Part shown: positions 7,900 through 63,716 of the stretch, piece by piece
Layout of the letters: every line of letters starts with the position of its first letter
Position numbering within the stretch: position 1 is the stretch's first letter
Assembly (NCBI RefSeq): GCF_041438805.1
Contig: NZ_CP109190.1
Span: forward strand, 806,001-870,000
Length of the DNA stretch: 64,000 bases
Direction of reading: 5' to 3'
Origin: Streptomyces sp. NBC_01707
GTDB lineage: Bacteria > Actinomycetota > Actinomycetes > Streptomycetales > Streptomycetaceae
Notes under the pieces: model-generated
The model's database searches: none
Seen by the model: only the letters and a program-made list of their open reading frames with translations
Told to the model about the DNA's origin: nothing
Position numbers and translations under genes: made by a program

Positions 7900-8325
7900 A
7901 CGGCGTGCTGCTTCCGCCCAGGCAGCATTTCCTGCACCTTTGCCTGAAGCCCTGTCGGACCACGGCGGCCCGATCGGAGTCCCCCTTCAGGACGGACGCG
8001 GCCGCGGCCTCGATCTGGTCCAGCGTGGCGCGCGGCAGGATCGGAGGCACGGCCGGGTCGGTGCGGAAGTCCCGGATGAAGGGGCAGGCCGCGGCCAGGG
8101 CCCGCTGCCAGGCGTCCTCGACCTCGCCGGGCTTCTCCACCCGCAGTCCGTCCAGGCCGATGGAGCGGGCGAAGTCCGCGTACTTCACGTCCGGCAGGGA
8201 CTGCGAGGGCAGGAACTGCGGTGCGCCGGACATGGCGCGCATCTCCCACGTGACCTGGTTGAGATCCTCGTTGTTGAGCACGGCCACGACCATGCGCAGG
8301 TCGGACCATCCGTCGTAGCGCGACC
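7900..8325 (-). pseudogene. TPP-dependent oxidase/decarboxylase, C-terminal remnant
   Basis: The C-terminal ~135 residues of a thiamine-pyrophosphate enzyme of the pyruvate oxidase/acetolactate synthase type: MVVAVLNNEDLNQVTWEMRA, ARSIGLDGLRVEKP, FRTDPAVPPILP and ATLDQIEAAAASVLKGD. Catalytic domains upstream are absent (the frame loses similarity just above 8320), and near 7950 the reading shifts into another frame for the expected end, LQAKVQEMLPGRK. It is a remnant only. Confidence 0.8.
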
Positions 8326-8359
8326 GCCTGCGCTGTGCGCGGCGGCAGACCGACCGTCG

Positions 8360-9022
8360 TTACACGGGGCCGGCCCGGTCAGGGTGCTGGGTGCCTTGCC
8401 CGATGAGTGTGTCGAGCTGGGCGGCGAGGCGGGGATGGGAGCCGGTCAGGTAGGGGCGGGTCGCGGTCAGTGGGCGGACGAGGGCTGCAGGGTCGTCGTG
8501 GGCGAGGGCCGCGTCAAGCTGGCCGAGGGGGGTGCGGGCGGTCGCGGGGAGATCGGTGAGGGCGGCGATCTGTCCGGCGATGCGACGCAGGCGGGCGGCG
8601 TTGTCGCGGGCCCAGGCGGTGTGAGTGCGGTCGGCGGCGCGACTTTCACGGGTGGCCTGGACGCGCTGTTCTCCGGTGGTTCCGGCGGGGCCGGGGCGGT
8701 TGCGCAGGTAGCGGCGTTCAGCGGCCTGGCGGCTGGCGACGCCGAGAGGGGCCGCGAGATCGGCCCAGCTGGCGCCCGCGTGGCGGGCGGTTTCGATCAG
8801 ACCGGTTTCCCATCCGGCGAGCTGCTCGCGCACCTGCCGCAGCAGCAGAAGGGACGCCAGGGCCTGCTGCGGGCCGGTATCTGCGCCAGCGGGGTCGGTG
8901 GCCCGCTCATGGGCTTCGTGCACAGCGTGGTCGATGGCTTCCAGGGCCGCCGCCGCGGCCAGGAACGAGGCAGGGCTCTGGGCGTCGGTGCGGGAGGGGG
9001 GCGGCTGACCGGCTGCTGTCAC
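8360..9022 (-). CDS. rheA: Hsp18 transcriptional regulator (RheA-like)
   Basis: A 220-residue, helix-rich soluble protein divergent from hsp18. A central segment (ETARHAGASWADLAAPLG, then VASRQAAERRYL) looks like a helix-turn-helix. In Streptomyces albus, RheA is encoded next to hsp18 and represses it until heat changes its conformation. The name here rests on that gene arrangement, on family resemblance, and on two operators of the described RheA type in the shared intergenic region. The GTG start at 9022 follows a strong GGAAGGAG. Confidence 0.75.
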   Translation of the reverse strand: MTAAGQPPPSRTDAQSPASFLAAAAALEAIDHAVHEAHERATDPAGADTGPQQALASLLLLRQVREQLAGWETGLIETARHAGASWADLAAPLGVASRQAAERRYLRNRPGPAGTTGEQRVQATRESRAADRTHTAWARDNAARLRRIAGQIAALTDLPATARTPLGQLDAALAHDDPAALVRPLTATRPYLTGSHPRLAAQLDTLIGQGTQHPDRAGPV

Positions 9023-9038
9023 GGGAACTCCTTCCGAC

Positions 9039-9083
9039 TGTCATCCTTTCGACGACAGGTTGTTTGTCATCCATTGGATGACA
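9039..9083. promoter_or_regulatory. Two tandem RheA-type operators
   Basis: TGTCATCC-ATT-GGATGACA at 9065-9083 is a perfect inverted repeat with 8-base arms. A second copy, TGTCATCC-TTT-CGACGACA at 9039-9057, has a degenerate right arm. The two begin exactly 26 bases apart, between the divergent rheA-like gene and hsp18. The core TGTCATC-N5-GATGACA is the operator described for RheA of S. albus. Confidence 0.8.
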
Positions 9084-9148
9084 TGCTACAACGGTTTCTG
9101 TGAAGCGCATTGGCAGGTACTGCCCGAACCTTCAGGAGGTGTTTCGCG

Positions 9149-9580
9149 ATGTTGATGCGCACCGACCCCTTCCGCGAACTCGACCGGCTGACCCAGCAAC
9201 TGATGGGCCCCGGCACCTGGTCGCGGCCGTCCACGATGGCGATGGACGCCTACCGCGAGGGTGACGAGTACGTGGTGGCCTTCGACCTTCCCGGCGTCAG
9301 CGCGGAGGCGATCGACATCGACGTCGAACGGAACATGCTGACCGTCAAGGCCGAGCGACGGCCCGTGGCGAAGTCCGACGACGTGCAGATGGAACTGTCG
9401 GAGCGGCCGCTGGGCGTGTTCTCCCGCCAGATCGTGCTGGCCGACACCCTGGACACCGAGCGCATCCAGGCCGACTACGACGCCGGGGTCCTCACCCTGC
9501 GCATCCCGATCGCCGAGCGCGCCAAGCCCCGCAAGATCTCCGTCGGCGGGGAGTCCTCCCGCAAGGAGATCTCCGGCTGA
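9149..9580 (+). CDS. hsp18: Hsp18 small heat-shock protein (Hsp20 family)
   Basis: A 143-residue alpha-crystallin-type holdase that binds unfolding proteins. The alpha-crystallin domain spans about residues 28-130, with [20 protein letters not shown] near its start and the end-of-domain motif [13 protein letters not shown] (the GVLTLRIP signature). A frame upstream would add 13 residues, but ATG 9149 has AGGAGGT at 9134-9140. The RheA-type operators 66-110 bases upstream imply temperature-controlled repression. Two DUF2267 genes follow on the same strand. Confidence 0.93.
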
Positions 9581-9672
9581 ACCCGGCGACCCGTGCCGCG
9601 GCGCAGGACGGGCGCCTGATCTCCCGCTCCCCCGTCCTGCGCCCCATCAGGCCAAGAGAGGCGGTGGCTGAC

Positions 9673-10068
9673 ATGACCCTGCGATGGGAAGCCTTCCTCG
9701 ACCACGTGAAGGAACGCGGCGAGTACGGGAGCAGGCACGAAGCAGAACGCGCGGCCCGCGTGGTGCTCGCCCTGCTCGGCGCACACCTACTCGGCGAGGT
9801 GCGTGCCCAACTGGCGGCACACCTGCCCGAAGGCTTCGCCCTGATCCTGCTCAACCCGCTGCAGAGCGCCGAACCCCTCCCACCCGAACGGTTCCTCCGG
9901 GCGACGGCGGCCTGGATCGACGGGGCCACCGAACAGACCGCGGCCTGGGACGTCAGCGCCGTCCTCAGCACGGTCGCCGACGCGGTCGACGACGACCTGC
10001 TCAAGCAGATCCTGCTCCAACTCCCCGCAGGCTACGACCTCCTCTTCGGCCGCCCCCAGCCCACCTGA
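9673..10068 (+). CDS. DUF2267 protein 1
   Basis: A 131-residue soluble protein of the DUF2267 family, which is of unknown function and common in actinobacterial stress clusters. It has the typical opening WEAFLDHVKERGEYGSRHEA, the middle VRAQLAAHLPEGFALIL and the closing LLKQILLQLPAGYDLLFG. ATG 9673 is preferred because of GAGAGG about 11 bases upstream; a GTG at 9664 is also possible. It lies 92 bases after hsp18 and is probably co-expressed with it. Confidence 0.85.
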   Translation: MTLRWEAFLDHVKERGEYGSRHEAERAARVVLALLGAHLLGEVRAQLAAHLPEGFALILLNPLQSAEPLPPERFLRATAAWIDGATEQTAAWDVSAVLSTVADAVDDDLLKQILLQLPAGYDLLFGRPQPT

Positions 10069-10144
10069 CCCCCACCGACCTGGGTGCCCGGGCCCGCCGG
10101 CCACCCACACCACGACCTCGACGACGAGAAAGGCGACTACCGCA

Positions 10145-10582
10145 GTGATGTCCGACCAGCGTGAACCGGTCCTGCACCTCCCGGCGATGACGTTCGAGGA
10201 GATGCTGGAGAAAGTCCGCTACGAAGGGGCCTACCCCACCCGAGAACGGGCCGCGGAAGCCGTCCACCTGGTCCTTTCAGGACTCGGACGCCAGCTGACC
10301 GGCGACGAACGCGTCGAACTGGCAGCCCGCCTGCCCCTCGAGGCCGCCTCCACCCTCACCGAACAGATCCCCGCAATCGAGCCCCTCACCGGCCGGGCCT
10401 TCGTCAAAGACCTCGCCTCCCGCACCGGCGCCACCCCGGCCACCACCCGCTGGGACACCGGCGCCGTCCTCGCCGCCGTCACCACCCTCGCCGGCCCCGA
10501 CCTCCTCACCCGCATCCTCGACCAGCTCCCCACCGGCTACGCTCTCCTGTTCGGCCGCGCCGAACTCACCCAAGCTGCCTAA
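10145..10582 (+). CDS. DUF2267 protein 2
   Basis: A 145-residue paralogue of the preceding DUF2267 gene, with matching elements in the same order: FEEMLEKVRYEGAYPTRERA, VELAARLPLEAASTL, and LLTRILDQLPTGYALLFG. The tandem pair probably arose by duplication. GTG 10145 and ATG 10148 are both in frame; GAGAAAGG lies about 15 bases upstream. Codon use is strongly GC-biased, as in the first copy. Confidence 0.85.
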   Translation: MMSDQREPVLHLPAMTFEEMLEKVRYEGAYPTRERAAEAVHLVLSGLGRQLTGDERVELAARLPLEAASTLTEQIPAIEPLTGRAFVKDLASRTGATPATTRWDTGAVLAAVTTLAGPDLLTRILDQLPTGYALLFGRAELTQAA

Positions 10583-10721
10583 GGCAGACTGCCGCGCGAC
10601 AACCCAGGGGACGCCGTCGGCGGGTGTGAGTGGGGGCGTAACCGGTGGTGTCCGTGGCGGGAAGTGCATCCTGGCGAGTTCGATCTGGTCATGCCACTAG
10701 GCGATAGACCACGAGTCGCGG

Positions 10722-10937
10722 TTGCTCTTTGCCGACTTCGATCCGTCCGTAGGCGGCATCTTGGGAGACCTGCGCCGGCACGCGCTCGAGTTGGGGGTCT
10801 CGCGCTACCTGGCTGCGGAGCGGTTGATCGCTGACGGCAACCTCACTCAGGAGCAGCGCGGTGAGGTGTTGTCGGCTCTCGTGCAGGCGATGGTGAGTGG
10901 GCCTTCGCAGCCGCCCGCCGACACTCCTAACTCCTAA
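10722..10937 (+). CDS. Possible small helical protein
   Basis: A 71-residue frame from TTG 10722 with amphipathic, non-repetitive composition (SVGGILGDLRRHALELGV, LIADGNLTQEQRGEVLSALV), unlike the Arg/Pro-rich shadows around it. No ribosome site is obvious and no family is recognised. It may be the tail of a decayed gene. The surrounding 10583-10720 shows nothing else. Confidence 0.3.
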   Translation: MLFADFDPSVGGILGDLRRHALELGVSRYLAAERLIADGNLTQEQRGEVLSALVQAMVSGPSQPPADTPNS

Positions 10938-11072
10938 CGCGCCGACGCAGGCTGGTCGCTGACTTGCCCTGCGCGGCCCACACGACTGCTTGATCGGCGG
11001 GTTATCCACAGGTCGAGCGAGGTCCTTGGTGTTGCCCGTACGGTGTTGATCTTCGAGGATGCGGAGGCGCCC

Positions 11073-11198
11073 GTGCGTGTCGAGTTGGAGTGGTTGGCCA
11101 CCGAGGTCATCGCCGAACTTCCTACGACTCAGGCTCGGACTGAAGTGCGGTCGTTGATCGTCGATGTTCTGCGGCATCCGGACCAGTTCGCCGGATAG
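11073..11198 (+). CDS. Possible 41-residue protein
   Basis: A short frame from GTG 11073, preceded by GGAGG at 11062-11066, encoding a helical peptide (ELEWLATEVIAELPTTQART, VRSLIVDVLRHPDQFAG). Its composition and ribosome site favour a real small gene, but nothing is recognised and the length is close to chance. Confidence 0.25.
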   Translation: MRVELEWLATEVIAELPTTQARTEVRSLIVDVLRHPDQFAG

Positions 11199-11350
11199 CC
11201 GTCACCGTCATGGACCTCGGCGTGCACGTTGACGCACTCATCGAGATCAGACGCGTCGGGCCGCCGGATACGGCAGGTCGGAGTTTCGCCTGCCGTAGGA
11301 GCACCCTGTCGATTCACCGGAGCATGAAAGCACAACACGACTGACCCCGC

Positions 11351-11923
11351 ATGTCTGTGACCAGCATTTTCGCAACAGGCTCTAGCATGCTGACTGTGCG
11401 ACCCACTCTCCCGAAGATCGAGGGCGGCCGGGTACAGGGCCTCCTGCAACTCATCGAGGACGGCATCCATCTCGTCGTCGCGGCGCTCCTCGTACTGCTC
11501 GCGGGGCTCCTTACCGTCGGGGTCGTCCACGACGTCATCAGGTCGATCCAGGGGCCGTACCGCGAGGAGACGGTCGTTCTCTCCGCCTTGGACAACGGCC
11601 TTGTGCTGTTTATCGTGGCCGAGTTGCTCCACACCGTCCGCCTCACCATCAGGAACCAGACCCTCGACGCGGAGCCGTTCCTCGTCGTTGGCCTGATTGC
11701 CGGTATCCGCAAGGTGCTCATCGTGACTGCAGAGGCGGAGAAGTCCTTCCGGTGGAACGTCGAGGGGATCGAACTGCTCATCCTGGCGGGGCTGATCCTC
11801 GTGATGGCGACAGCGGCGTACGTATGGCGGCGCTCGACGCGGCCAGGAGATTACTTCCCGCTCCAGGAGGCGGGGCGCTCCCCGTCGCCGGCGCCGTCAC
11901 CCACCCCGGTGCGTGGGTCCTGA
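11351..11923 (+). CDS. PsiE-like phosphate-starvation membrane protein
   Basis: A 190-residue protein of the PsiE family with four membrane helices (about 44-62, 82-97, 113-130 and 139-162 from the first ATG). The family was named from a phosphate-starvation gene in E. coli; its biochemical role is unknown. An internal ATG at 11390 is an alternative start, and neither has a strong ribosome site. The last 73 bases overlap the 3' end of the convergent FUSC gene, so the two transcripts are antisense at their ends. Confidence 0.75.
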   Translation: MSVTSIFATGSSMLTVRPTLPKIEGGRVQGLLQLIEDGIHLVVAALLVLLAGLLTVGVVHDVIRSIQGPYREETVVLSALDNGLVLFIVAELLHTVRLTIRNQTLDAEPFLVVGLIAGIRKVLIVTAEAEKSFRWNVEGIELLILAGLILVMATAAYVWRRSTRPGDYFPLQEAGRSPSPAPSPTPVRGS

Positions 11924-14073
11924 TCGTCACCTTCCGCCTCCACGGCCGCCCGCACCCGCTGCTCTTCGCGAGCGGAGCCGACGTCCCGTTCCAGGGATGT
12001 GCGGCTCACGGCCGTCGCGAGGTCCTCCAAGGCCCGCTTCTGTAGTTCCGCCCCGCGCCGCACTACCGGGCTCCGGTCCCCGGCGGCGGCGCCCGCCCAC
12101 GCGTGGAGCGCCTCCTCCACGCGCCCCCAGTCCGGATTCCTGTGCTCGCGCACGTCGACTGCCGCCTGCGCGGTGTCCGCCTCCAGGGCCTCGGCGAGCC
12201 GCTCCGCCTCGGGGACAAGACGGCTGTCGTCCCGCGGGACGTGGCTCTCCATGAGCATCGCCGCCCGACCGAACCCCTTGAGCGCCTCCTGCGCCTCCTC
12301 CGCCTCGCGCGACGTCAGGCCCCTGGGGCGGACCGGTTCCTGCCTCGCCCGGTCGTAGGCCTCCTGCCAGGCGGCACGTGCCTCCCTGCTCGCCAGCAGT
12401 GCCCTGCGCATGTCGGCGTGATGCTCCCGGGTCGGTTCGGCGTAGCTGCGGAGCACCGCGGCCGCATAGCGGCCGTTGGCGGCGAGCCAGTCCGCAAGCC
12501 GGCCCGGCAGTCGGGGTGTCTCCCATGCGGGGAACACCACGTACGCCAGCATTGCCAGGGCCCCGCCGAGCAGGGTGAGCACCACGCGCTCCGGGACCGT
12601 CTGCTCCCATGCCTGGCCGCCCATGCCGAGCAGGAAGACGACGTACGCGGCAGTGAAGCACTGGGAGTAGGCGTAGCCGGTACGGATCAGCGTGTACGAC
12701 AGGCCCGCCGAGACCACCGTCAGCGCGCCGAACACATGGGCGTCCGGGCCTAGGGCCCGCACCATCCCGGTGGCGAACGCGACCCCCGCCAGGGTCCCGG
12801 CGAGACGGGCCACCGCCCGCGCGTACGTCCGGTGGAAGTCCGGCCGCATCACCATCACCGAGGCGATGGGCGCCCAGTAACCGTGGCCCAGGGGTAGCCG
12901 GGCGGCGATCAGATAGCCGAGCGTGGCCACCGCCGCCAGGCGGACGGCGTGCCTGAACACGGGCGAGTCCCGGCGGAGCTCACAGCGGACCGCGCGGACG
13001 ACGACCGGTACCAGCCGGAACATTGTCGGGCGCACCAGGAACTGGGCGCCCGCGGGGCCGTGCAGCGTGCGCGTCTTCCCGCGCGCGCCGCCGCTCCCGG
13101 CGATCTCCACCGCCTCGCCAAGCAGTTCCACAAGCCGCGCGGCAGTCTGCCGCGCGGGGCCCTCCAGCACCTCGTGCTTCTCGTCGACCCGCAGGACGTC
13201 CGGGCTCCCGGGCGGCACCTCAGCGGGAGTGCCGCGGCGGATCGAACGGGCGACCGCATCCAGGACGTCGGCGGCCGCGTCGAGCAACTCCCGCGCGCGG
13301 TCCCGCCCGGGTCCCTCCGCCGGGGCGCCGACGTCCGGGTCGGCGAGCGCGGCGACGACCGGCCGAATGCGCTCGGCGAGTCCTCGGGGGCCGTGGAGGA
13401 CGGGGGGCCGGGTGCGGGCCTGTGATGGCGTCACGGCGGCCGCGTCCCGGGCAGTCATCAACGGCTCCGGGTCGAACGGGGCGGTCGGGTCGTGCCGCAG
13501 CCGGCGAGCGTAGTCCGCCACGGCGGCCAGGGCGTCGGCGAGTGCGTCACGATGCGCCCCCCAACGGCGGATCGGGAACAGCAAGATCAGCACGGCCTGC
13601 GCCACGCTTCCAAGTGCGATGACCCCGGCGTGCTCCAGGGCTCGCCCGACGCTCGTGGGCAGGGTGATGGTCACCAGCATGCTGCCGACGGTCGTCGCTG
13701 CGACGATCCCAGCGGTCGATCCGACGGCCCACGCCATCCCCGCGGCAAAGGCCCATACGGCCAGCAGAGGGAGGAACGTCACCAGTCGCCCCGCCGCCAG
13801 GTAGCCAACGAAGGTGCTGAGCGCCAGACCCGCGCCCGCGCCGAGCGCGATCACCTTGCGTGGACGCCAGGTGCGCTGGAAGGTGGCCCCACCCGCGGAG
13901 TAGGCACCGAGGGCGGCGGACGCTGCGTACGCAGGGGAAACCAGCCACAGTGCCAGCCCGATGACGATCGCCACCCCAGCAGCCGTGCGCAGCGCGAGCA
14001 GGGGCTCCAGCCGCGTCTCCTCGAGCGTGAGCCCGGATCGCACGACCTCCCCGAAGGCCCGCAGCCACGTCAC
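11851..14073 (-). CDS. FUSC-family membrane transporter
   Basis: A 740-residue protein of the FUSC/YccS type, related to aromatic-acid and fusaric-acid exporters. It has two membrane blocks of about six helices each: an N-terminal block (about residues 25-180, with AAGVAIVIGLALWLVSPAYA) and a second near 350-510 including LGHGYWAPIASVMVMRPDF, the FUSC signature. A charged helical region separates them and a long charged tail follows. GTG 14073 is chosen because homology begins there, though the ribosome site is weak. Substrate is not predictable. Confidence 0.85.
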   Translation of the reverse strand: MTWLRAFGEVVRSGLTLEETRLEPLLALRTAAGVAIVIGLALWLVSPAYAASAALGAYSAGGATFQRTWRPRKVIALGAGAGLALSTFVGYLAAGRLVTFLPLLAVWAFAAGMAWAVGSTAGIVAATTVGSMLVTITLPTSVGRALEHAGVIALGSVAQAVLILLFPIRRWGAHRDALADALAAVADYARRLRHDPTAPFDPEPLMTARDAAAVTPSQARTRPPVLHGPRGLAERIRPVVAALADPDVGAPAEGPGRDRARELLDAAADVLDAVARSIRRGTPAEVPPGSPDVLRVDEKHEVLEGPARQTAARLVELLGEAVEIAGSGGARGKTRTLHGPAGAQFLVRPTMFRLVPVVVRAVRCELRRDSPVFRHAVRLAAVATLGYLIAARLPLGHGYWAPIASVMVMRPDFHRTYARAVARLAGTLAGVAFATGMVRALGPDAHVFGALTVVSAGLSYTLIRTGYAYSQCFTAAYVVFLLGMGGQAWEQTVPERVVLTLLGGALAMLAYVVFPAWETPRLPGRLADWLAANGRYAAAVLRSYAEPTREHHADMRRALLASREARAAWQEAYDRARQEPVRPRGLTSREAEEAQEALKGFGRAAMLMESHVPRDDSRLVPEAERLAEALEADTAQAAVDVREHRNPDWGRVEEALHAWAGAAAGDRSPVVRRGAELQKRALEDLATAVSRTSLERDVGSAREEQRVRAAVEAEGDDQDPRTGVGDGAGDGERPASWSGK

Positions 14074-48515: not shown

Positions 48516-49235
48516 TCAGCCCGGCACTTCCAGCTCGATACCGCCGATCCGGCAGCTCAGTCGCCGGTCGGACCGGGTCCCGATCCTTCGGGCGCCTTTC
48601 AGGTTCTTCGCGAAGGCCTTGCGCTGGGCCGGGCTGACAGAACGCCAGCGCAGCTCGAGGACCGGGCGCACTGGCGGAATGAGCTCCCGCAGCCGCTCGT
48701 CGACCTGGGCGAGGCCGGTCTCGTAATCGTCGTCCGGTCGATAGACCAGATCGAGGTCGACCGACGGCTCGGTGCCGCCGGCCTGGTGGTGACAGGCCGT
48801 GAGCCAGCCGGTGATCCAGTCGAGCGCGATCCGCACCGTGGAAGAGATCTGCTCCTGCCACTCGCCGAGGTAAGGCGCGTTCACCGACTCCGCGGTCACT
48901 TCCTCCGGCATCACGATCAGCCCGCGAACGGCGGTGCCGAGCAGCTCGACGTGGATGCGCGGCCACAGGCCGCTCGCGTCGATCCGGAAGGAGGGAAAGC
49001 GCCCCGCCATGCCTATCCCCGTCCGCAGCTGAGCCCAGTTCATCGCGTCGGCCGGTGGCCGGTCGGGCGTGTACGGCCCGGTGGTCCGATGCCCGAGCTG
49101 ACTGGCGCGCATCATGAACACGGCCGCGAATTCGTCGCCTCGCAACGTCATGCTCACGGGGAAGAACGCCCCGATCTCGCCCATGAACACCTTGCCGGTG
49201 ATCAGGGCTTCGATACTGGACCGACCCGGGATCAT
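48516..49235 (-). CDS. 239-aa protein coupled to the WD40 kinase
   Basis: A soluble 239-residue protein of unrecognised family. Its first half is beta-rich (VFMGEIGAFFPVSMTLRGDE, FPSFRIDASGLWPRIHVELL); the second has VDLDLVYRPDDDYETGLAQV, a helix with basic residues (SPAQRKAFAKNLKGARRIG) and the closing strands LSCRIGGIELEVPG. GGAGGAGG lies ahead of ATG 49235, inside the kinase's last codons, and the two genes overlap as ATGA. Strict coupling implies it works with the kinase, perhaps as substrate or effector (inference). Confidence 0.75.
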   Translation of the reverse strand: MIPGRSSIEALITGKVFMGEIGAFFPVSMTLRGDEFAAVFMMRASQLGHRTTGPYTPDRPPADAMNWAQLRTGIGMAGRFPSFRIDASGLWPRIHVELLGTAVRGLIVMPEEVTAESVNAPYLGEWQEQISSTVRIALDWITGWLTACHHQAGGTEPSVDLDLVYRPDDDYETGLAQVDERLRELIPPVRPVLELRWRSVSPAQRKAFAKNLKGARRIGTRSDRRLSCRIGGIELEVPG

Positions 49236-52200
49236 CGCTGCCTCCTCCATCGCCGCCGCGCCGGCTTCTCCGGCGTCGGTGCCTGCCCCCGCACGTCGTC
49301 CAGTTCGGTCTGGACGGCGAGCGTCTTCGGGTGGTCGTCGCCCAGCCGCAGCCGCCGTTTCGCCAGCACCTCGCGCAGGACCGGCTCGGCGTCGCCCGGT
49401 CGCCCGAGCCGGTGGTGCACCCGCGCCAGGCCCACCCGAGCGTCGAGCGTCCGGCCGTCGTCGCGGCCGAAGCGTCTCACGAGCCGGGGCAGCAGGTCGG
49501 CGTACATCCGTTCCGCTTCCGCCTGTTCGCCGCTCGCCGAGAGCAGGGACGCGAGCGCCGCGGTCGCCTCCAGGGTGGCCGGGTGGTCCGGCCCCAGGTC
49601 CTGTGCGCGCTCTCCGGTCACCGCCCGGACCAGCGCCAGGGCCTCCGGCTCCCGGTGCAGGTCGGTGAGGACCGCGGCCCAGCCGAGCATCGCGCCCTGG
49701 GTGTCGACGTGCCCGGCGTCCCAGAGGTGGGAGCGGACATCGACGACGAGTTGCCATGCGTGCTCGGCCGCGGCCAGGTCCCCCTCCCGGTGCAGGACCG
49801 GGGCGGCCTCGGCGAGCGTGACGAGGTCGTCCTGGAGCTGCTCGGCGAAGTAGCCGGCCCAGAACTCCTCTGACCGGTTCAGCTCTGCCTCCGGTCGCAG
49901 CAGCAGCGCGAGCCCTTCGGCCGTGCTCGGTATCTGTGTGGGCTCCCGGCTCGCCGCGTCCTCGGCCACGAACCGCACGTACAGCCGATAGCCGGTATCG
50001 GTGCGCGAAACGATCTTGTCCAGTTCGCCGGCGAGCTCCAGGGTGCGGGTGACGGCGTGCCGCTGCCGGTCGCCGAGGCGGGCGAACGCCTCGACGAGCG
50101 CCGGGCGGCTGTCGTCGCGGGAAGGCAGCGGAACGGCGACCTCGGCCCGCAGCTCGTCGAGCGCGGGCTCGGCCTCCGGCCGCAGGGAGCCGGTCGCCGA
50201 GCCGAAGTCGTATTCCCAGTCCAGGGCCCAGGTCAGCAGGCGCCCGTGCTCGTCGCCGGCCAGGAGCAGGGTGCCGTCGGGGGCCAGCGCGACGTGCGTG
50301 ACCGCGTCCGAAAAGCCGGTGAAGGCGCGCAGTTGCCGCCCGGTCGTGAGGTCCCACAACCGAGCCTTCCGGTCCTCCCCACCCGACGCCGCGAGCCGGA
50401 AGTCCGGTGTGACAGCCAGACTCCGCACGATGCCTACGTGCCCGGCCAGGACGTGGACGCAGCGCGCAGCCACGACGTCCCACAGCCGGACGGTGCCGTC
50501 CACCGAGCAGGACAGCAGCCGTCGGGCGTCCGGGCTGGGCAGGACGTCGACCACGGCGTCCGTGTGCCCGGTGAGTACCACCTCGCACTGTCCGTCGGCG
50601 GTCCGCCAGACCCGCACCGCTGCGTCGGCGCCACCGGTGACCACGAACCGGCTGTCGTCGCTCAGCCGCGCGGCGCCGATCCACTCGTGGTGCCCGCGCA
50701 GCACCCACCGGCGCTCGCCTTCGCGTAGATCCCAGATCTTCACGCTGACGTCCTGGCCGCGCGAGAGCCCGTAGCGGTGATCAGCGCTGACGGCCACGCC
50801 CAGCACCGCCCCCGGGTGCGCCTCCCAGCGCCCGATGGTCCGGCCGCTACCGATGTCCCAGGCCGTGACAAGGCCGTCGGCGGTTCCCGAGAGGGCCACT
50901 TGGCCGTCCTCGCTGACCGCGACGTAGTACACATGGTCGCGGGGGCTGGTGAACAGCTGCACGATCCGCCTGTCGCGCGGGTGCCAGGCGACGACCCGGC
51001 CGTCCTCGCCCCCGGACACCGCGAGCCGGCCGTCGACGGTCATCGCCACGGCACTGATGTGGCCGGTGTGCAGGCTGAGCGTGTGCAGCAGCTGCCCGGT
51101 CTCGACGTCGAAGACCCACGCTTCGGCGCTGTTCCCGGCACGGGCGAGCACGGTGGGGCTGCGGCCGCTGAACTCCAGGGCCCACGACCGGCCGTCCTCC
51201 GGGACGATTCGGCCCGCGGCCCAGGCGTCGACGAGCTCGGTACGGCGGCCGAGGGCACCGAGGCGACGCCAGAGACGCACCGGCTCGGTATGGCGCCGGT
51301 GCCCGGGCAGCGCGCGGGCTGCGCGGATCAGACCTGCCGCGTCGTCGAGCCGTCCGGTGCCGGCCAGCGTGGCGGCCTCCGCCAGCAGCGCGGCCGCCCG
51401 GGCGGCGGTGGCGGCGACGTCCGGGGCTTCGTGCGGGCGGACGTAGCTCCACGGGGCCGGCGGGCCCGCGGGCGGCAGGTGCCACACCCGCACGGACTTC
51501 CCCTCGGCGGTGACCGCAACCCGCCCGGCCGCGCTGAGCACGACCTCCTTGGTGGCGGGCGTCGGGTCCAGGGACAGGCGGCACCGGCCACTGCCCAGGT
51601 CCCACACTCTCGACGGCTCGTCCCGGCCACCGCTGGAGAAGCCGACCGTCCCGTCCAAATTGACGGCGACCCGGCCGAAGCCGGTCTTCAGCTCCCGCCG
51701 GGGTTCGCCGGACTCGAGATCGACCAGGCGGACGTCCGTGCTGCCGAGGTCGACCACGGCGAGGCGGCCGTCGCCGCTGAACCGCGCCGACATCACGGTG
51801 CGGTCGAACCGGTGCACCAGCTCGCCCGTGCGGACGTCGTACACGGAGTTCGTGTGGCGCTGGTAGTCGATGACGGAGCACAGGGTGCCCTGGGCCCCGA
51901 GGACGTCCGCCTTGCTCTCGAACTGCCGGACGTCCAGGGGTTCGCGCGTCTCGAGGTCCCAGGTGACGGTTTCCCCTTCGAAGCCGCTGGTGACCGCGTG
52001 CCGCTGGTCCGCCGTCAGCGCGACCAGGCCCACCCAGCTGGGGTGGCCGGGCAGTTCGAACCCGGCCGCGGCTTCGAGGTCGAGCACGAGTGCCCGTCCG
52101 ACGCCCCCGCCGACGACCACGAGCTGTCCGTCGTCGCGCACCGCCACGGCCGAGGCACGATACTTCTCGAGCTGGAACTGTTGCCGGCACTCCTTCGTCG

Positions 52201-53581
52201 GGACGTCCCAGATCCGCAGCCCGCCGGAGCTGTCGGCCGAGACCGCGACCTGGCCGTCCGGGGTCAACGCGAGGGCGACGATCCGGTCTTCGTGTTCCCC
52301 CGGCAGGACCGACTGCGCGGGGGCGGGTGCGTGTTCGACCGACGCGAGCGCGTCGGCGATCTGCGGATCGCCGGGCGTCCGCGCGTCCGTGTCCCGCAGC
52401 AGCGCGGCCGCCGCGACCGGATCGCCGCGTTCTCGGTGCACGAGCGCGAGCAGGTACTCCCCGACACCGTCGCCCGGATCCCCGAACCGCACGGACTCCA
52501 GTTCGTCGACCAGTTCGGCGTCGGTGATCACCCCGGTCCGCCATCGGTGCAGCCCGCGGTTGTAGCGGGCGTGCGGGTGGTGCGGATCCGCCCGAAGCGC
52601 CCGGGTCCACAGCTCCTCCGCGCTGTCGCGGAGGCCGAGGTCCAGCATGGACAGCGCGTGGTTGGACAAGCCGTCGGCGAGCAGAGTGGCCGCCGCCGGA
52701 GCGCGCCGGGGGTACGGGCCGACTTGCCGCTCGTGCACCCGGATCAGGCGCTCCGCGAGCGGCCCGAGCCGGGCGGGCCGCGCGGCCGGGTCCTCGGTGA
52801 GGCACTCGCGCAGCACGTCCGCCACCTCGGCCGGCACCGGCAGGACCGCGTCCGGGGCCCCGGAGCGGGCGAAGCCGTCGAAGACGCCGCCCGCCGCGGT
52901 CCCGTCCGGGTCCGGTGGTCGGCCGAGGAACATTTCGAGGACGGTGACCGCCCAGGACCAGGTGTCCGTGGCCGTTGTGAGCCCGCCCGGTGACCGCGCC
53001 TGTTCGGGCGAGCAGTACGCGGGAGTCAGACCGCCGCGGCTGACGAACGGATCCGCGTCCCCTGCGACCTGCCCGGTGGCCATGCGGGCCCGGGCCATGC
53101 CGAAGTCGGTGACCTTGACCGTGCCGTCCCGGGTGAGCATCACGTTGGCGGGCTTGACGTCCTGGTGCACGACCCCGTTCTCGTGCGCGTGGTCGAGTCC
53201 CCACGCGGACTGGATGGCGACGTCCAGCACCGATCCCAGGGGGTCGGTCCCGTACAGGCTCCGGCTCCGGACGGCTTCGGCCAGGCTGCCGCCGTCCGCC
53301 CACTCCGCGAAGACCCGGGGCACTCCGTCCAGGGTGCGGACGTAGACGCAGTTCGCGATGTGCGGGTGCAGGCCCAGCCCGACCCACACCTCGGCTTCCC
53401 GTTCGAAGTCCCGGATCGCGTCCGGCGAGCGGATCAGTGCCCGGCGAGGGGTCTTCACCGCCAGGTCGATGTCCCAGCCGTGGTGCCGGACCCGGTGCAC
53501 CAGTCCCATGCCGCCGGTGCGCACCACGTCCAGGACCTCGTAGAGGTCGAGGATCAGGTCCCCGCGGCGCCATGTCGCCAT
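49232..53581 (-). CDS. Giant Ser/Thr kinase with TPR and two WD40 blocks
   Basis: A 1449-residue protein. Kinase domain about 10-280: Gly loop GGMGLVH, catalytic K43 (AVKTP), HQDVKPAN at 139-146 (HQD in place of HRD), DFG 159-161, SPEQ near 191. TPR-like repeats about 295-415. First WD40 block about 428-705, helical linker 715-800, second WD40 block about 805-1120 with clear repeats (VRLWDVVAARCVHVLAGHVG, ARLWDLTTGRQLRAFTGFSD). C-terminal TPR_10/12-like repeats about 1300-1430 (DLGPDHPATLEATAALASLL, RLGDDHPKTLAVQTELD). No membrane helix is seen. It starts five bases after the upstream gene. The layout resembles sensor/effector scaffolds used in signalling or immunity. Confidence 0.88.
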   Translation of the reverse strand: MATWRRGDLILDLYEVLDVVRTGGMGLVHRVRHHGWDIDLAVKTPRRALIRSPDAIRDFEREAEVWVGLGLHPHIANCVYVRTLDGVPRVFAEWADGGSLAEAVRSRSLYGTDPLGSVLDVAIQSAWGLDHAHENGVVHQDVKPANVMLTRDGTVKVTDFGMARARMATGQVAGDADPFVSRGGLTPAYCSPEQARSPGGLTTATDTWSWAVTVLEMFLGRPPDPDGTAAGGVFDGFARSGAPDAVLPVPAEVADVLRECLTEDPAARPARLGPLAERLIRVHERQVGPYPRRAPAAATLLADGLSNHALSMLDLGLRDSAEELWTRALRADPHHPHARYNRGLHRWRTGVITDAELVDELESVRFGDPGDGVGEYLLALVHRERGDPVAAAALLRDTDARTPGDPQIADALASVEHAPAPAQSVLPGEHEDRIVALALTPDGQVAVSADSSGGLRIWDVPTKECRQQFQLEKYRASAVAVRDDGQLVVVGGGVGRALVLDLEAAAGFELPGHPSWVGLVALTADQRHAVTSGFEGETVTWDLETREPLDVRQFESKADVLGAQGTLCSVIDYQRHTNSVYDVRTGELVHRFDRTVMSARFSGDGRLAVVDLGSTDVRLVDLESGEPRRELKTGFGRVAVNLDGTVGFSSGGRDEPSRVWDLGSGRCRLSLDPTPATKEVVLSAAGRVAVTAEGKSVRVWHLPPAGPPAPWSYVRPHEAPDVAATAARAAALLAEAATLAGTGRLDDAAGLIRAARALPGHRRHTEPVRLWRRLGALGRRTELVDAWAAGRIVPEDGRSWALEFSGRSPTVLARAGNSAEAWVFDVETGQLLHTLSLHTGHISAVAMTVDGRLAVSGGEDGRVVAWHPRDRRIVQLFTSPRDHVYYVAVSEDGQVALSGTADGLVTAWDIGSGRTIGRWEAHPGAVLGVAVSADHRYGLSRGQDVSVKIWDLREGERRWVLRGHHEWIGAARLSDDSRFVVTGGADAAVRVWRTADGQCEVVLTGHTDAVVDVLPSPDARRLLSCSVDGTVRLWDVVAARCVHVLAGHVGIVRSLAVTPDFRLAASGGEDRKARLWDLTTGRQLRAFTGFSDAVTHVALAPDGTLLLAGDEHGRLLTWALDWEYDFGSATGSLRPEAEPALDELRAEVAVPLPSRDDSRPALVEAFARLGDRQRHAVTRTLELAGELDKIVSRTDTGYRLYVRFVAEDAASREPTQIPSTAEGLALLLRPEAELNRSEEFWAGYFAEQLQDDLVTLAEAAPVLHREGDLAAAEHAWQLVVDVRSHLWDAGHVDTQGAMLGWAAVLTDLHREPEALALVRAVTGERAQDLGPDHPATLEATAALASLLSASGEQAEAERMYADLLPRLVRRFGRDDGRTLDARVGLARVHHRLGRPGDAEPVLREVLAKRRLRLGDDHPKTLAVQTELDDVRGQAPTPEKPARRRWRRQR

Positions 53582-53586
53582 CGTCG

Positions 53587-54249
53587 TCAGTCGACGGTGG
53601 CGACGTACACCGGTGTCCCGAGCAGTACCGACCTGGCCGTGCCGTCCGGGCTGTCGCCGTGCAGCAGGCGCTTGGCCACGAACTCGACGTTCTGCGCCGG
53701 CCACCGCAGGCTCGCCACGGCGCCCTGCACCCGGGCGAGCGCGGCGCGGTCGGCGCGGTCGAGGTCGCCGTCCACCGCGTCGGCGACGTACTCGTCCTCG
53801 AGTTCCGAAGTGACTCCCAGCCCGTCGAGCATCGATGACATCATCGAGCGCCCCACCCCGCGCGCATCGGCGTCCGGCACGGAGTCCCACACGTGCTTGT
53901 ACGAGCCACCCAGCCCGACGACCGTGTTCTCGCTCCGCCCGCCGAAGAACACCAGTGAGGACGTGGGATCGCCGGGGAACGCCCCCCAGCGCATCGGGAG
54001 CAGCCCCCAGAAGAACTGACCCGGCTCGTCCACCGAGCCGAGATCACCGTGATCGCGCAGGTACCCGACGACGGTCTCCAGCCGACGGATCCGGTCGTCG
54101 GACGGGCCCTCGGTCGTTCGCTTCGCCGACAGCACCGTGAGATTCACGCCCAACTCGGTCTGGCGCTTCGCCCCGAACCTGGGGTCGATCTGCGGCAACA
54201 GCATGTCGATCTTGCTGTCGCTGACGTAAACGTAGTAGCTGAACGACAT
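53587..54249 (-). CDS. Conserved 220-aa protein (DUF7019-like) heading the module
   Basis: A 220-residue soluble protein. The N-terminus YYVYVSDSKIDMLLPQIDPR and RFGAKRQTELGVNLTVLSAK, the middle FFWGLLPMRWGAFPGDPTSS, LVFFGGRSENTVVGLGGS and a tail ending GTPVYVATVD are well conserved in style. I associate it with a DUF7019-type family found in actinobacteria, function unknown; that name is from memory. The FFGG(R/x)S...VGLGGS pattern suggests a ligand-binding fold. ATG 54249 follows GGGAG. It is first in the operon, so it may be the sensor. Confidence 0.75.
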   Translation of the reverse strand: MSFSYYVYVSDSKIDMLLPQIDPRFGAKRQTELGVNLTVLSAKRTTEGPSDDRIRRLETVVGYLRDHGDLGSVDEPGQFFWGLLPMRWGAFPGDPTSSLVFFGGRSENTVVGLGGSYKHVWDSVPDADARGVGRSMMSSMLDGLGVTSELEDEYVADAVDGDLDRADRAALARVQGAVASLRWPAQNVEFVAKRLLHGDSPDGTARSVLLGTPVYVATVD

Positions 54250-54523
54250 TGCCAGCTCCCTCCCAGGCATTGACCTGCCCCAGCGTAGCGATCACGGTCC
54301 GATGCGAGCCATCAGATGCTTGGGTCGGGCACCGTGAGGTTGCGGTGGCCGCGCTCCGATCGGGATGACGCGCACGTTCAGGAGGCCAAGTCGCGATCAT
54401 GCAAAGGCCCTGGGGAACGGGCTGTGTTCGGCGCGGGCCGCCGAGTTCGAGGGGGACCGTCGTCAAGGATGATCCAGGTTCAATCGTCATGTGCGGCTTT
54501 GGTGCAGGTGGGGCCGGGCATCA

Positions 54524-61483: not shown

Positions 61484-61996
61484 CTACAGCGGTGCCTGCA
61501 GTCCAGCGGTACGTCGTGCGAGTTCCGCCGCGGCCGGATGTGCGGCCGCGGCCGTAGTCGTGTCGGCGGTGAGCAGGTACAGCTCGAAGGCCTCGTCGGC
61601 GCCGGGCGGTGGCGCCACCAGCGGTGGCGGGTCCTGGTGGCGGCCGCTGGCGCAGGCGGCCAGCTGCAGTCGGGGCGTGAGGTTGTGCAGCGTGTTGATC
61701 CAGTCGGCCTCGGCGAGCTCCCGGCCAGCTGGCTGTTCGCCGGCATGGGTACGCAGCCAGCCCACGTACAGGGCGGTCAGGTGCTCGACGACGGGTGGGT
61801 GGCGGTACCAGCAGGGTGGGATGTTGTTGTGGAGTTCGAAGGTGCGGCGCAGCCAGTCGACCCAGATCGCAAGTTCTCGCATCCGGGCACGCCGCTCGGG
61901 CGGGTCCATGGCAGCCCACACCCACCGCTGAGGCTCGGGCTTGGCGGCGGCCGGTGCCGGCCACAGAGAGGCGGGGTTGTCGAGCGCGTCAGACAC
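61484..61996 (-). CDS. Conjugative-element protein (170 aa)
   Basis: A 170-residue protein with a Trp-rich core (WVWAAMDPPERRARMRELAI, WVDWLRRTFELHNNIPPCWY, VVEHLTALYVGWLRTHAG). This resembles small proteins that accompany VirD4 genes in Streptomyces integrative elements; the WCxxWxxH-like pattern recalls DUF4913 only loosely. It overlaps the end of the coupling-protein gene by eight bases. Confidence 0.75.
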   Translation of the reverse strand: MSDALDNPASLWPAPAAAKPEPQRWVWAAMDPPERRARMRELAIWVDWLRRTFELHNNIPPCWYRHPPVVEHLTALYVGWLRTHAGEQPAGRELAEADWINTLHNLTPRLQLAACASGRHQDPPPLVAPPPGADEAFELYLLTADTTTAAAAHPAAAELARRTAGLQAPL

Positions 61997-63716
61997 GGGT
62001 GCCGGCCTTCCCGGGTGCGGCGGGCGTGGTGAAGCTGACCGTCCCTGCCGGAGGAACGGGGGCGGCCAGCAGCTTCTTGAGGTCCTTGTCGCGGAAGGTG
62101 AGCCGCATCTTGACCTTGATCGGGGGCTGGTTGGAGTACTGGGCGATCGCGGTGAAGTCCGGCAGCTGCTGCAGGGAGTGGACCGGGGCGAGGTCGGTCT
62201 CGGTGGCGGAGGTGTTGGTGGAGTACTCCCCGCGGGAGCGGCCGTGGGAGGTCCGCATCACCTCGGTGCGTCCGTACAGGCCGGAGAAGTAGCGCAGGGT
62301 CTCCAGATCGCCACAGCCGGGCAGCAGCATCCGCAGACCGCTCGCGGAGAGCACGGTGTTGGCCTTCTGGGTGCCAAGCCGGTCGCGGAGCTGGGACAGG
62401 TCGTGCCACACCGTCAGGACGTCGATTCCCATCCCGCGGCCGGTGGTCAAGATGTTCGGCAGTCTCGGGTAGCGCAGCATGTTGCCGGCCTCGTCGACCA
62501 TGACCCCAAGGGACGGGTTCAGGGGATTTCCGGTGGTGTTGTAGCGGACTTCGGCGCCGTGGATGATCGACGCGATGATCGAGGTCAGTAGCGGGGCGAA
62601 GCGTTCGGCGTCGGCTTCGGACGCGATGAGGCAGACGGTGCCGTTCTGGTCCAGGAGCTCCTCGACGGTGAAGTCGGTGCCCGAGCATGTTTCGTGGACT
62701 TCTTCGTCGGCGTAGACCCGGGCCAGCACGTTAAGGCTGAACTGAATGCTGCCGATGCCGTCTTCGTGGAGGCGCAGCCAGGGGGATGCGTAGTCGTCGG
62801 CAACTTCGGTGTAGCCGTGCTGCAGCAGGACGGCGCGGACATGGTCGACGGCGTCCTTGCCCAGGCCCAGCCAGCGGCGCATCACGCTCACGCCGCCGCC
62901 CGAGAGGCTCGCGGCGAGCAGGACGCCCTTGAGGACGCTCTTGGCCTGGTCGATCCAGGGGGCGGCGCGCTTGTCGTCGCCGGAGGCGGAGGCCTCTGCC
63001 ATCCATGCGGCCATCCTGTCGGCTGCTTTGGCGTCGGCGCAGTAGTCCACCGGGGACCATTTGTGGGTGGTGCGGCCGGGGATCCCGGCGGGGGCGATCA
63101 CCCACACCGGGCCGAAATGCCGGCGCCGGGCGTAGATGATGTCCAGGTCGGCGGCCTTGGTGCTCGTCACGATCAAGGGTCCCTGCCACTCGGCTGCGTT
63201 CGGCAGCACCAGCCCGGTCGTCTTCGATGACCCGGGTACCCCGAATACCGTGGCGGAGATGTTGGGCTGGGCGGCGACGATCTTCTTGGTCCGCATCCCG
63301 CGTCCGGCGGTGATCCGGTTGGCGCGCCTGACCGGGTCCTGGGGTGCGGAGAGCTTGCGTTCCACCTTCGCGCCGCCCCACTGTGCTCCGCCGGTGCGGC
63401 CGCTGCGGTCGAGGAGGCTGACGGCTTTGACGACCAGGACGAGGACAGCGACGACCAGAAGAACAGTGAGTACGTAGAACAGCCAGGTGGGCGGGGCCGG
63501 GTCGTAAGCTGCGCCAGGTCCGCGTACGAGGGCGGTGAGGACGGTCGCGGGGACGCTGCTGGTGCGCGTCGCCCATCCGCGTCCGGACAGCAGGGATGCG
63601 AGCGGTGCGGCCAGCAGCACCGCGCCGCTGACCGAGACCAGTGCGCCCGCGCCGTAGGCGGCGAGCAGGGTGTTGTCGTCCATGGCGGCGGACGGGCCGC
63701 TCTTCCCCGTCGCCAT
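61989..63716 (-). CDS. VirD4/TraG-type conjugative coupling ATPase
   Basis: A 575-residue type IV coupling protein that brings DNA to the transfer channel. Membrane helices lie at about 20-45 and 77-100; Walker A GVPGSSKT is at 159-166; Walker B is in LGVMVDEAGN, near 400, followed by the TraG-like NILTTGRGMGIDVLTVWHDL and LSQLRDRLG. ATG 63716 shares its A with the stop of the upstream gene. Double-stranded translocation by TraB/FtsK is typical of many Streptomyces plasmids; this VirD4 type signals instead a T4SS-like element. Confidence 0.92.
   Translation of the reverse strand: MATGKSGPSAAMDDNTLLAAYGAGALVSVSGAVLLAAPLASLLSGRGWATRTSSVPATVLTALVRGPGAAYDPAPPTWLFYVLTVLLVVAVLVLVVKAVSLLDRSGRTGGAQWGGAKVERKLSAPQDPVRRANRITAGRGMRTKKIVAAQPNISATVFGVPGSSKTTGLVLPNAAEWQGPLIVTSTKAADLDIIYARRRHFGPVWVIAPAGIPGRTTHKWSPVDYCADAKAADRMAAWMAEASASGDDKRAAPWIDQAKSVLKGVLLAASLSGGGVSVMRRWLGLGKDAVDHVRAVLLQHGYTEVADDYASPWLRLHEDGIGSIQFSLNVLARVYADEEVHETCSGTDFTVEELLDQNGTVCLIASEADAERFAPLLTSIIASIIHGAEVRYNTTGNPLNPSLGVMVDEAGNMLRYPRLPNILTTGRGMGIDVLTVWHDLSQLRDRLGTQKANTVLSASGLRMLLPGCGDLETLRYFSGLYGRTEVMRTSHGRSRGEYSTNTSATETDLAPVHSLQQLPDFTAIAQYSNQPPIKVKMRLTFRDKDLKKLLAAPVPPAGTVSFTTPAAPGKAGTRV

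Follow-up and report, generated by a model that had tools for sequence, protein, structure and literature searches.

Three tightly packed genes in Streptomyces sp. NBC_01707 raise the question of whether a very large kinase and the two small proteins encoded beside it belong together and, if so, for what purpose. They occupy positions 48,516 to 54,249 of a 64,000-nucleotide stretch of contig NZ_CP109190.1 (positions 806,001 to 870,000 of the forward strand), called the window here in its full length. The genes encode a 220-amino-acid (aa) protein of the DUF7019 family, a 1449-aa kinase with WD40 repeats and a 239-aa protein referred to as p239. Judged by sequence comparison, the trio is a real, conserved and portable cassette, probably exchanged horizontally. 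Its function is read here, tentatively, as self-contained phospho-signalling, in which the DUF7019 protein would be the regulator and p239 the phospho-target or adaptor.

Layout and conservation of the cassette

An earlier note on this DNA had described the trio as joined by a 5-base gap and an ATGA overlap; all three genes, the gap (between DUF7019 and kinase) and the overlap (between kinase and p239) are present as described:

53587-54249, minus strand: DUF7019 protein, 220 aa, DUF7019 / SAVMC3_10250 family
49232-53581, minus strand: kinase, 1449 aa, ATG start
48516-49235, minus strand: p239, 239 aa, no match in Pfam or NCBIfam
54250..54323, minus strand: leader of at most about 74 base pairs (bp) that accompanies the cassette, as judged by DNA similarity across sub-lineages

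A p239 profile (22 sequences) identified 11 loci in genome contigs, nine of which, all in Streptomyces, carry DUF7019, kinase and p239 in identical order. Together with a locus in genome G121 (L042) and the window itself, the same-order trio is found in 11 genomes; in one draft genome (L029) its kinase is broken by frameshifts. Median ratios of nonsynonymous to synonymous substitution rates (dN/dS) are 0.25, 0.33 and 0.36 for the three genes (9 sequences), and by this measure all three are under purifying selection. Because the order is the same in 11 genomes and dN/dS is low, the trio is not a chance arrangement. The linkage is conserved elsewhere, and the possibility that the genes are merely adjacent here therefore fails.

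The extent of the cassette was delimited by DNA comparison of 10 loci in two sub-lineages (L029 omitted). Across sub-lineages (24 pairs), similarity starts 63-74 bp before DUF7019 and stops between 0 and 13 bp short of the final base in the p239 stop codon, and within sub-lineages (21 pairs) it extends 63-313 bp upstream and 3-127 bp downstream. By these limits the cassette consists of the three genes and a short leader that may hold a promoter. The leader contains the conserved motif GTGATCG[AC]TA[GC]GCTGG, by eye a possible -10 region, and a ribosome-site-like GGGAGG. Another in-frame ATG lies 15 bases upstream of the p239 start, at 49250 (MEEAAMIPG...); this ATG or a similar one is present in p239 relatives and could be the true start.

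Trio loci have unrelated flanking genes, with three exceptions: the window and its closest relative L025 share both sides, L027 and L097 are one genome, and there are single low-identity matches. The closest neighbours in the window are, on one side, SIS, BadF and RpiR-type genes and, on the other, glutamine cyclotransferase and TetR genes, and five of these have 91-99% relatives around the trio of L025. The earlier note had placed the module between decayed mobile DNA and the end of an integrative and conjugative element. This setting is only partly right: a TraG/TraD-type conjugation coupling protein about 7.7 kb from the trio (window 61989-63716) is part of that element, but the setting does not describe the closest neighbours.

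The kinase, the DUF7019 protein and their families

Residues 14-270 of the kinase match Pkinase (PF00069), scoring 102.7 bits (cut-off 31.7). The motifs read earlier from the sequence are all found, namely the AVK lysine (K43), HQDVKPAN and DFG (VTDFG), and the Arg of HRD is absent. With the Lys, the HxD Asp and DFG in place, the protein would qualify as an active Hanks-type Ser/Thr kinase. WD40 (PF00400) is above cut-off, the best-scoring stretches falling within about 428-475 and 801-1118. With family matches from Pfam and NCBIfam and borders set by eye, the chain reads as kinase domain (about 10-285), TPR-like stretch (300-415), first WD40 region (430-705), helical spacer (720-790), second WD40 region (800-1118) and C-terminal TPR-like stretch (1250-1427), of which residues 1266-1427 match the FxSxx TPR model under that model's cut-off. 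The two WD40 regions and the C-terminal TPRs of the earlier description are thereby upheld, with borders by eye.

As one chain carries both the kinase domain and WD40 repeats, the protein belongs to the broad PkwA-like kind. One rival reading is regulation of development or metabolism in the manner of AfsK and PkwA, in which the WD40 scaffolds would tie the kinase to differentiation or secondary metabolism. PkwA, an actinobacterial WD40 kinase, has been known since 1996 according to the literature passages available, and a passage of PMC5587647 cites, by title, work on WD-40 proteins in the differentiation of S. coelicolor. This explanation is nevertheless unlikely: the AfsK model scores 50.9 bits with a cut-off of 1300, the portable cassette sits at unrelated sites, and it is accessory, with full p239-family genes in 4 genomes and DUF7019 in 29 among the 295 searched in the genus. 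Such accessory distribution suggests a conditional role, for example in conflict or stress response, rather than housekeeping.

Relatives of the kinase were searched with residues 1-420 (expectation value, E, up to 1e-50) in 219 genomes of the window's genus, yielding 27 matches in 26 genomes. DUF7019 adjoins nine of the 27, an FHA-kinase with a ClpB-like AAA+ protein three, an FHA-kinase only three, a convergent STAND-like NTPase three and a second WD40 protein one; nothing was recognised beside seven, and one neighbourhood was fragmentary. The class with the ClpB-like protein was assigned by Pfam in L156 and L159 and by similarity in L152, the FHA-only class by similarity, and the STAND-like NTPase of L149 scores exactly at the Pfam cut-off. 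Since only 9 of 27 matches have DUF7019, it is, to judge from these neighbourhoods, the partner of one kinase lineage and not a requirement.

Other arrangements recur within the family. At L156:11453-15165 (also L152 and L159) the kinase relative is followed by the ClpB-like AAA+ protein and the FHA-kinase, a second recurrent operon type, and at L149:7938-13878 (also L150 and L165) it is convergent to the STAND-like NTPase. A 1356-aa nSTAND1-WD40 protein adjoins the kinase relative in L165, and in L150 (G822, 8702-13631) the WD40 kinase gene is apparently interrupted by a DDE_3 transposase gene.

In the kinase tree, 13 DUF7019-linked kinases form one clade (support 98/96), with L046, L047 and L104 outside. 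This tree omits L097 (the L027 genome), L166 (short) and the trio loci L025, L027, L030, L031 and L033, and L126 was ignored (wrong reading frame, end branch 8.03). HQD replaces HRD in 13 of 14 DUF7019-linked kinases, the window's included, and in 15 of 18 other relatives (two have HRD; in one the motif was not found). Eight other kinase loci of the window genome comprise six with HRD and two without a motif match.

The 220-aa protein is a clear member of the DUF7019 / SAVMC3_10250 family, matching Pfam DUF7019 (PF22880) with 255 bits (cut-off 22) and NCBIfam SAVMC3_10250 (NF040893) with 178.3 bits (cut-off 50). The earlier claim that neither partner has a known function overlooked this named family and holds in so far as Pfam lists DUF7019 as being of unknown function. 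An OB-like beta barrel with N-terminal helices is predicted for the protein. Profile searches against solved structures gave chance-level matches only for both small proteins (best E 0.07 and 0.95). No literature was found under the names DUF7019, SAVMC3_10250, PF22880 or NF040893, and searches by family names found no description of DUF7019's kinase, HEAT-repeat or hydrolase partners.

DUF7019 was detected in 29 genomes among 295 from the window's genus; the corresponding figures are 15 of 147 for the order, 13 of 249 for another order and 6 of 394 for the class. Of the 39 neighbourhoods fetched (18, 20 and 1), 30 entered a DUF7019 tree of 39 rows together with the window and eight of the nine profile-search trio loci; L051-L056 and L059 (weak branch or fusion), L097 (duplicate) and L110 (at a contig end) were omitted. 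L058 and L111 are fragments, and linkage counts exclude the weak branch. In one clade, 21 of 23 rows lie beside a WD40 kinase from this family or what remains of one, a count biased toward the trio by the eight rows found via p239. Ten of the 23 rows hold the trio, nine the WD40 kinase (including a truncated kinase in L043, HRD in L104, and L105, confirmed by a kinase match in G712) and two the WD40 kinase with a p239-like gene; no partner was seen in two. In a second clade of 14 rows, five have a HEAT-repeat protein of 630-682 aa directly after DUF7019 (L100, by Pfam; L101, L103, L106 and L107, by eye), two have the WD40 kinase, and seven show none; no partner was seen for L114 and L117, outside both clades. 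Where the kinase follows DUF7019, the gap is 3-115 bp in 9 loci.

Some of these absences may be artefacts. No gene was called at the DUF7019 place in L049, L051, L052, L054-L056, L113, L114 and L117, and the gene was split or shortened in L058 and L105; such misses of the gene caller mean that the rows labelled as lacking a partner may hide one. Contigs of 12 kb or less (L058, L059, L109, L110 and L152) show a partial neighbourhood only.

Three further loci extend the range of DUF7019 contexts. DUF7019 is fused behind an alpha/beta-hydrolase domain at L059:520-1932, and in L053 (G058, 8100-10423) about 47 bp separate a kinase-like gene of 532 aa from the DUF7019 gene, one of the weak branch, that comes after it. 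An operon of DUF7019, kinase and a 204-aa protein is followed after 154 bp by a DUF4011 helicase that carries a REase_MTES_1575 domain (L057:26-5956).

p239 and its GPY loop

No Pfam or NCBIfam family matches p239 at E up to 1, and its AlphaFold2 model has a mean predicted local distance difference test score of 91.2. A wider profile search, in which the best 7998 candidates were scored, returned at least 56 p239 relatives. They share a loop, R50-[ST]51-x-G53-P54-Y55-[ST]56 in p239, with R-[ST]-x-G-P-Y present in 52 of 54 aligned sequences. Position 51 is S/T in 52 rows and a gap in the other two, and position 56 is S in 27, T in 22, D in 4 and A in 1. Only three columns of the 54-row alignment are S/T in at least 80% of sequences, and two of them lie within this GPY loop, where the model is somewhat less confident than over most of p239 (block means 78 and 82).

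The loop is missing from the Amycolatopsis sequences P0022, which is apparently the L035 protein, and P0024, and by inspection also from the Amycolatopsis L034 protein. L034:8969-10762 and L035:9157-10699 are the remaining two of the 11 profile-search loci; there, a Roadblock/LC7 gene and another gene of 123 aa precede a p239 relative (47% identity), and neither kinase nor DUF7019 is matched in the locus. Since these kinase-less relatives also lack the loop, the few loop-less sequences fit a role of the GPY loop as kinase target or docking site.

The same two loci could alternatively mean that the p239 family works with Roadblock/LC7-type or other partners and that p239 was captured behind the kinase as an independent passenger. 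This is improbable: in the trio genomes the reading frames overlap and the order is fixed, and in L044 and L102 distant p239 relatives (28-31% identity) directly follow DUF7019, by 15-21 bp, with genes for an FHA-kinase and a WD40 kinase running convergently towards the pair. Seven more pairs of p239 and DUF7019 relatives are apparently on a common contig among the matches listed (for DUF7019, 120 of 226).

Within the 295 genomes of the genus, p239-family sequence occurs in five, as four full genes, all inside DUF7019 loci, and one remnant. The latter is a 44-residue C-terminal piece of a trio-type p239 in G727 (L121, G727:C59) with no DUF7019 or kinase gene visible beside it; G727 also has two DUF7019-kinase loci on other contigs. 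No p239 was found in plasmids or viral contigs, and no entry of a viral structure library matched p239 at E below 0.001.

Nucleotidyltransferases are marked by a conserved metal-binding Asp pair. An assignment of p239 to this group was rejected: its fold gave hits to terminal uridylyltransferases, but the Asp pair is absent and no Foldseek E was below 0.001. An AbiEii match (PADLOC, E 0.0054) was discarded as too weak.

Signalling, conflict and known systems

In the tentatively favoured phospho-signalling cassette, the predicted OB-like barrel of DUF7019 would detect a ligand or partner protein and control the kinase, whose two WD40 regions and TPRs would assemble a complex. Because the motif is HQD rather than HRD, control would probably operate through complex assembly, independently of activation-loop phosphorylation. 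p239 would serve the kinase as a dedicated target or adaptor, and the GPY loop with its Ser/Thr residues would be where phosphorylation or docking takes place. The earlier proposal that one small protein senses and the other is the output is plausible.

Perhaps, instead, the cassette is an anti-phage or other conflict system. DUF7019 would recognise an invader cue (e.g. nucleic acid, through its predicted OB-like barrel), and growth would be arrested by kinase phosphorylation of host proteins, in the manner of Stk2. The portability of this accessory cassette and its unrelated insertion sites would agree with such a role, as would some decayed copies (the frameshifted kinase of L029, the truncated kinase of L043 and the p239 remnant of G727), the STAND-like NTPases and the nSTAND1-WD40 protein beside kinase relatives, and the DUF4011 helicase-nuclease behind one DUF7019-kinase locus; the close relative L116, however, shows no such gene.

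Eight neighbour genes of trio loci, picked by eye, include some of conflict type: a CHAT gene 160 bp upstream (L033), Trypco2 and a trypsin-like protein (L030), an NB-ARC protein (L032), a TIR match just below cut-off about 9.4 kb away (L029), a glycosidase match, a methyltransferase match and one gene without a match. PADLOC named one of seven neighbour sequences (one a mistaken reference), giving LmuA for the trypsin-like protein (E 9.5e-10). As hand-picked genes with no background rate, the conflict-type neighbours are at most suggestive.

The trio itself speaks against defence. No toxin or nuclease domain is found in it by Pfam, in agreement with the earlier note, and PADLOC, run at E up to 1, has no match for the DUF7019 protein. 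The kinase domain matches mad6 (156 bits) and PD-T4-6 (144 bits), but six other kinase domains of the genome each reach a higher best PADLOC score (221-478 bits); these are six of the eight top-scoring kinases fetched, and the assumption is that they include no defence kinase. The window kinase is not closer to the PD-T4-6 or MADS6 model than the genome's other kinases, and its PADLOC matches were dropped as defence evidence because the six controls scored higher. Literature searches found nothing joining WD40-repeat kinases, Streptomyces and antiphage defence, nor WD-40, Streptomyces protein kinases and the FHA domain. A conflict system is possible but doubtful.

A bolder extension of the phospho-signalling cassette, for which the chances appear slim, would be an immune-like relay family built on an HQD (non-RD) twin-propeller kinase hub with exchangeable modules. 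DUF7019 would read an infection-related ligand, phosphorylation would switch the GPY loop of p239, and relatives of the hub would drive ClpB-like unfoldases or STAND NTPases. If this were true, bacterial conflict systems would gain a kinase-centred, phosphorylation-based class. Independently of such an extension, DUF7019 and p239, two families without assigned function, now have a concrete partner and a biochemical hypothesis, and one kinase lineage is seen combined with differing neighbours in different Streptomyces.

The passages of PMC7159879, PMC8195603 and PMC5587647 available here cover related kinds of protein, and the cassette itself is absent from them. Like the PkwA-type WD40 kinases, as far as those passages go, the cassette kinase is an actinobacterial protein that joins a kinase domain to WD40 repeats. 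It differs in its operon with DUF7019 and p239, its two WD40 regions, its two TPR-like stretches and its HQD motif. To PD-T4-6 and MAD6 of MADS the likeness is one of kinase-domain homology only, and none of the accompanying system genes was seen. Kaur et al. 2020 (PMC7159879) describe NTP-dependent conflict systems with kinases related to propeller- or PASTA-fused actinobacterial kinases, and kinase, WD40, TPR, STAND and FHA parts also recur around the relatives of the cassette kinase. The MoxR-vWA core of the ternary systems is lacking, as Pfam found no match to either family in the trio or in 10 window neighbours scanned. Most of their kinase domains, according to the same passages, have disrupted catalytic residues, whereas the cassette kinase keeps its Lys, Asp and DFG.

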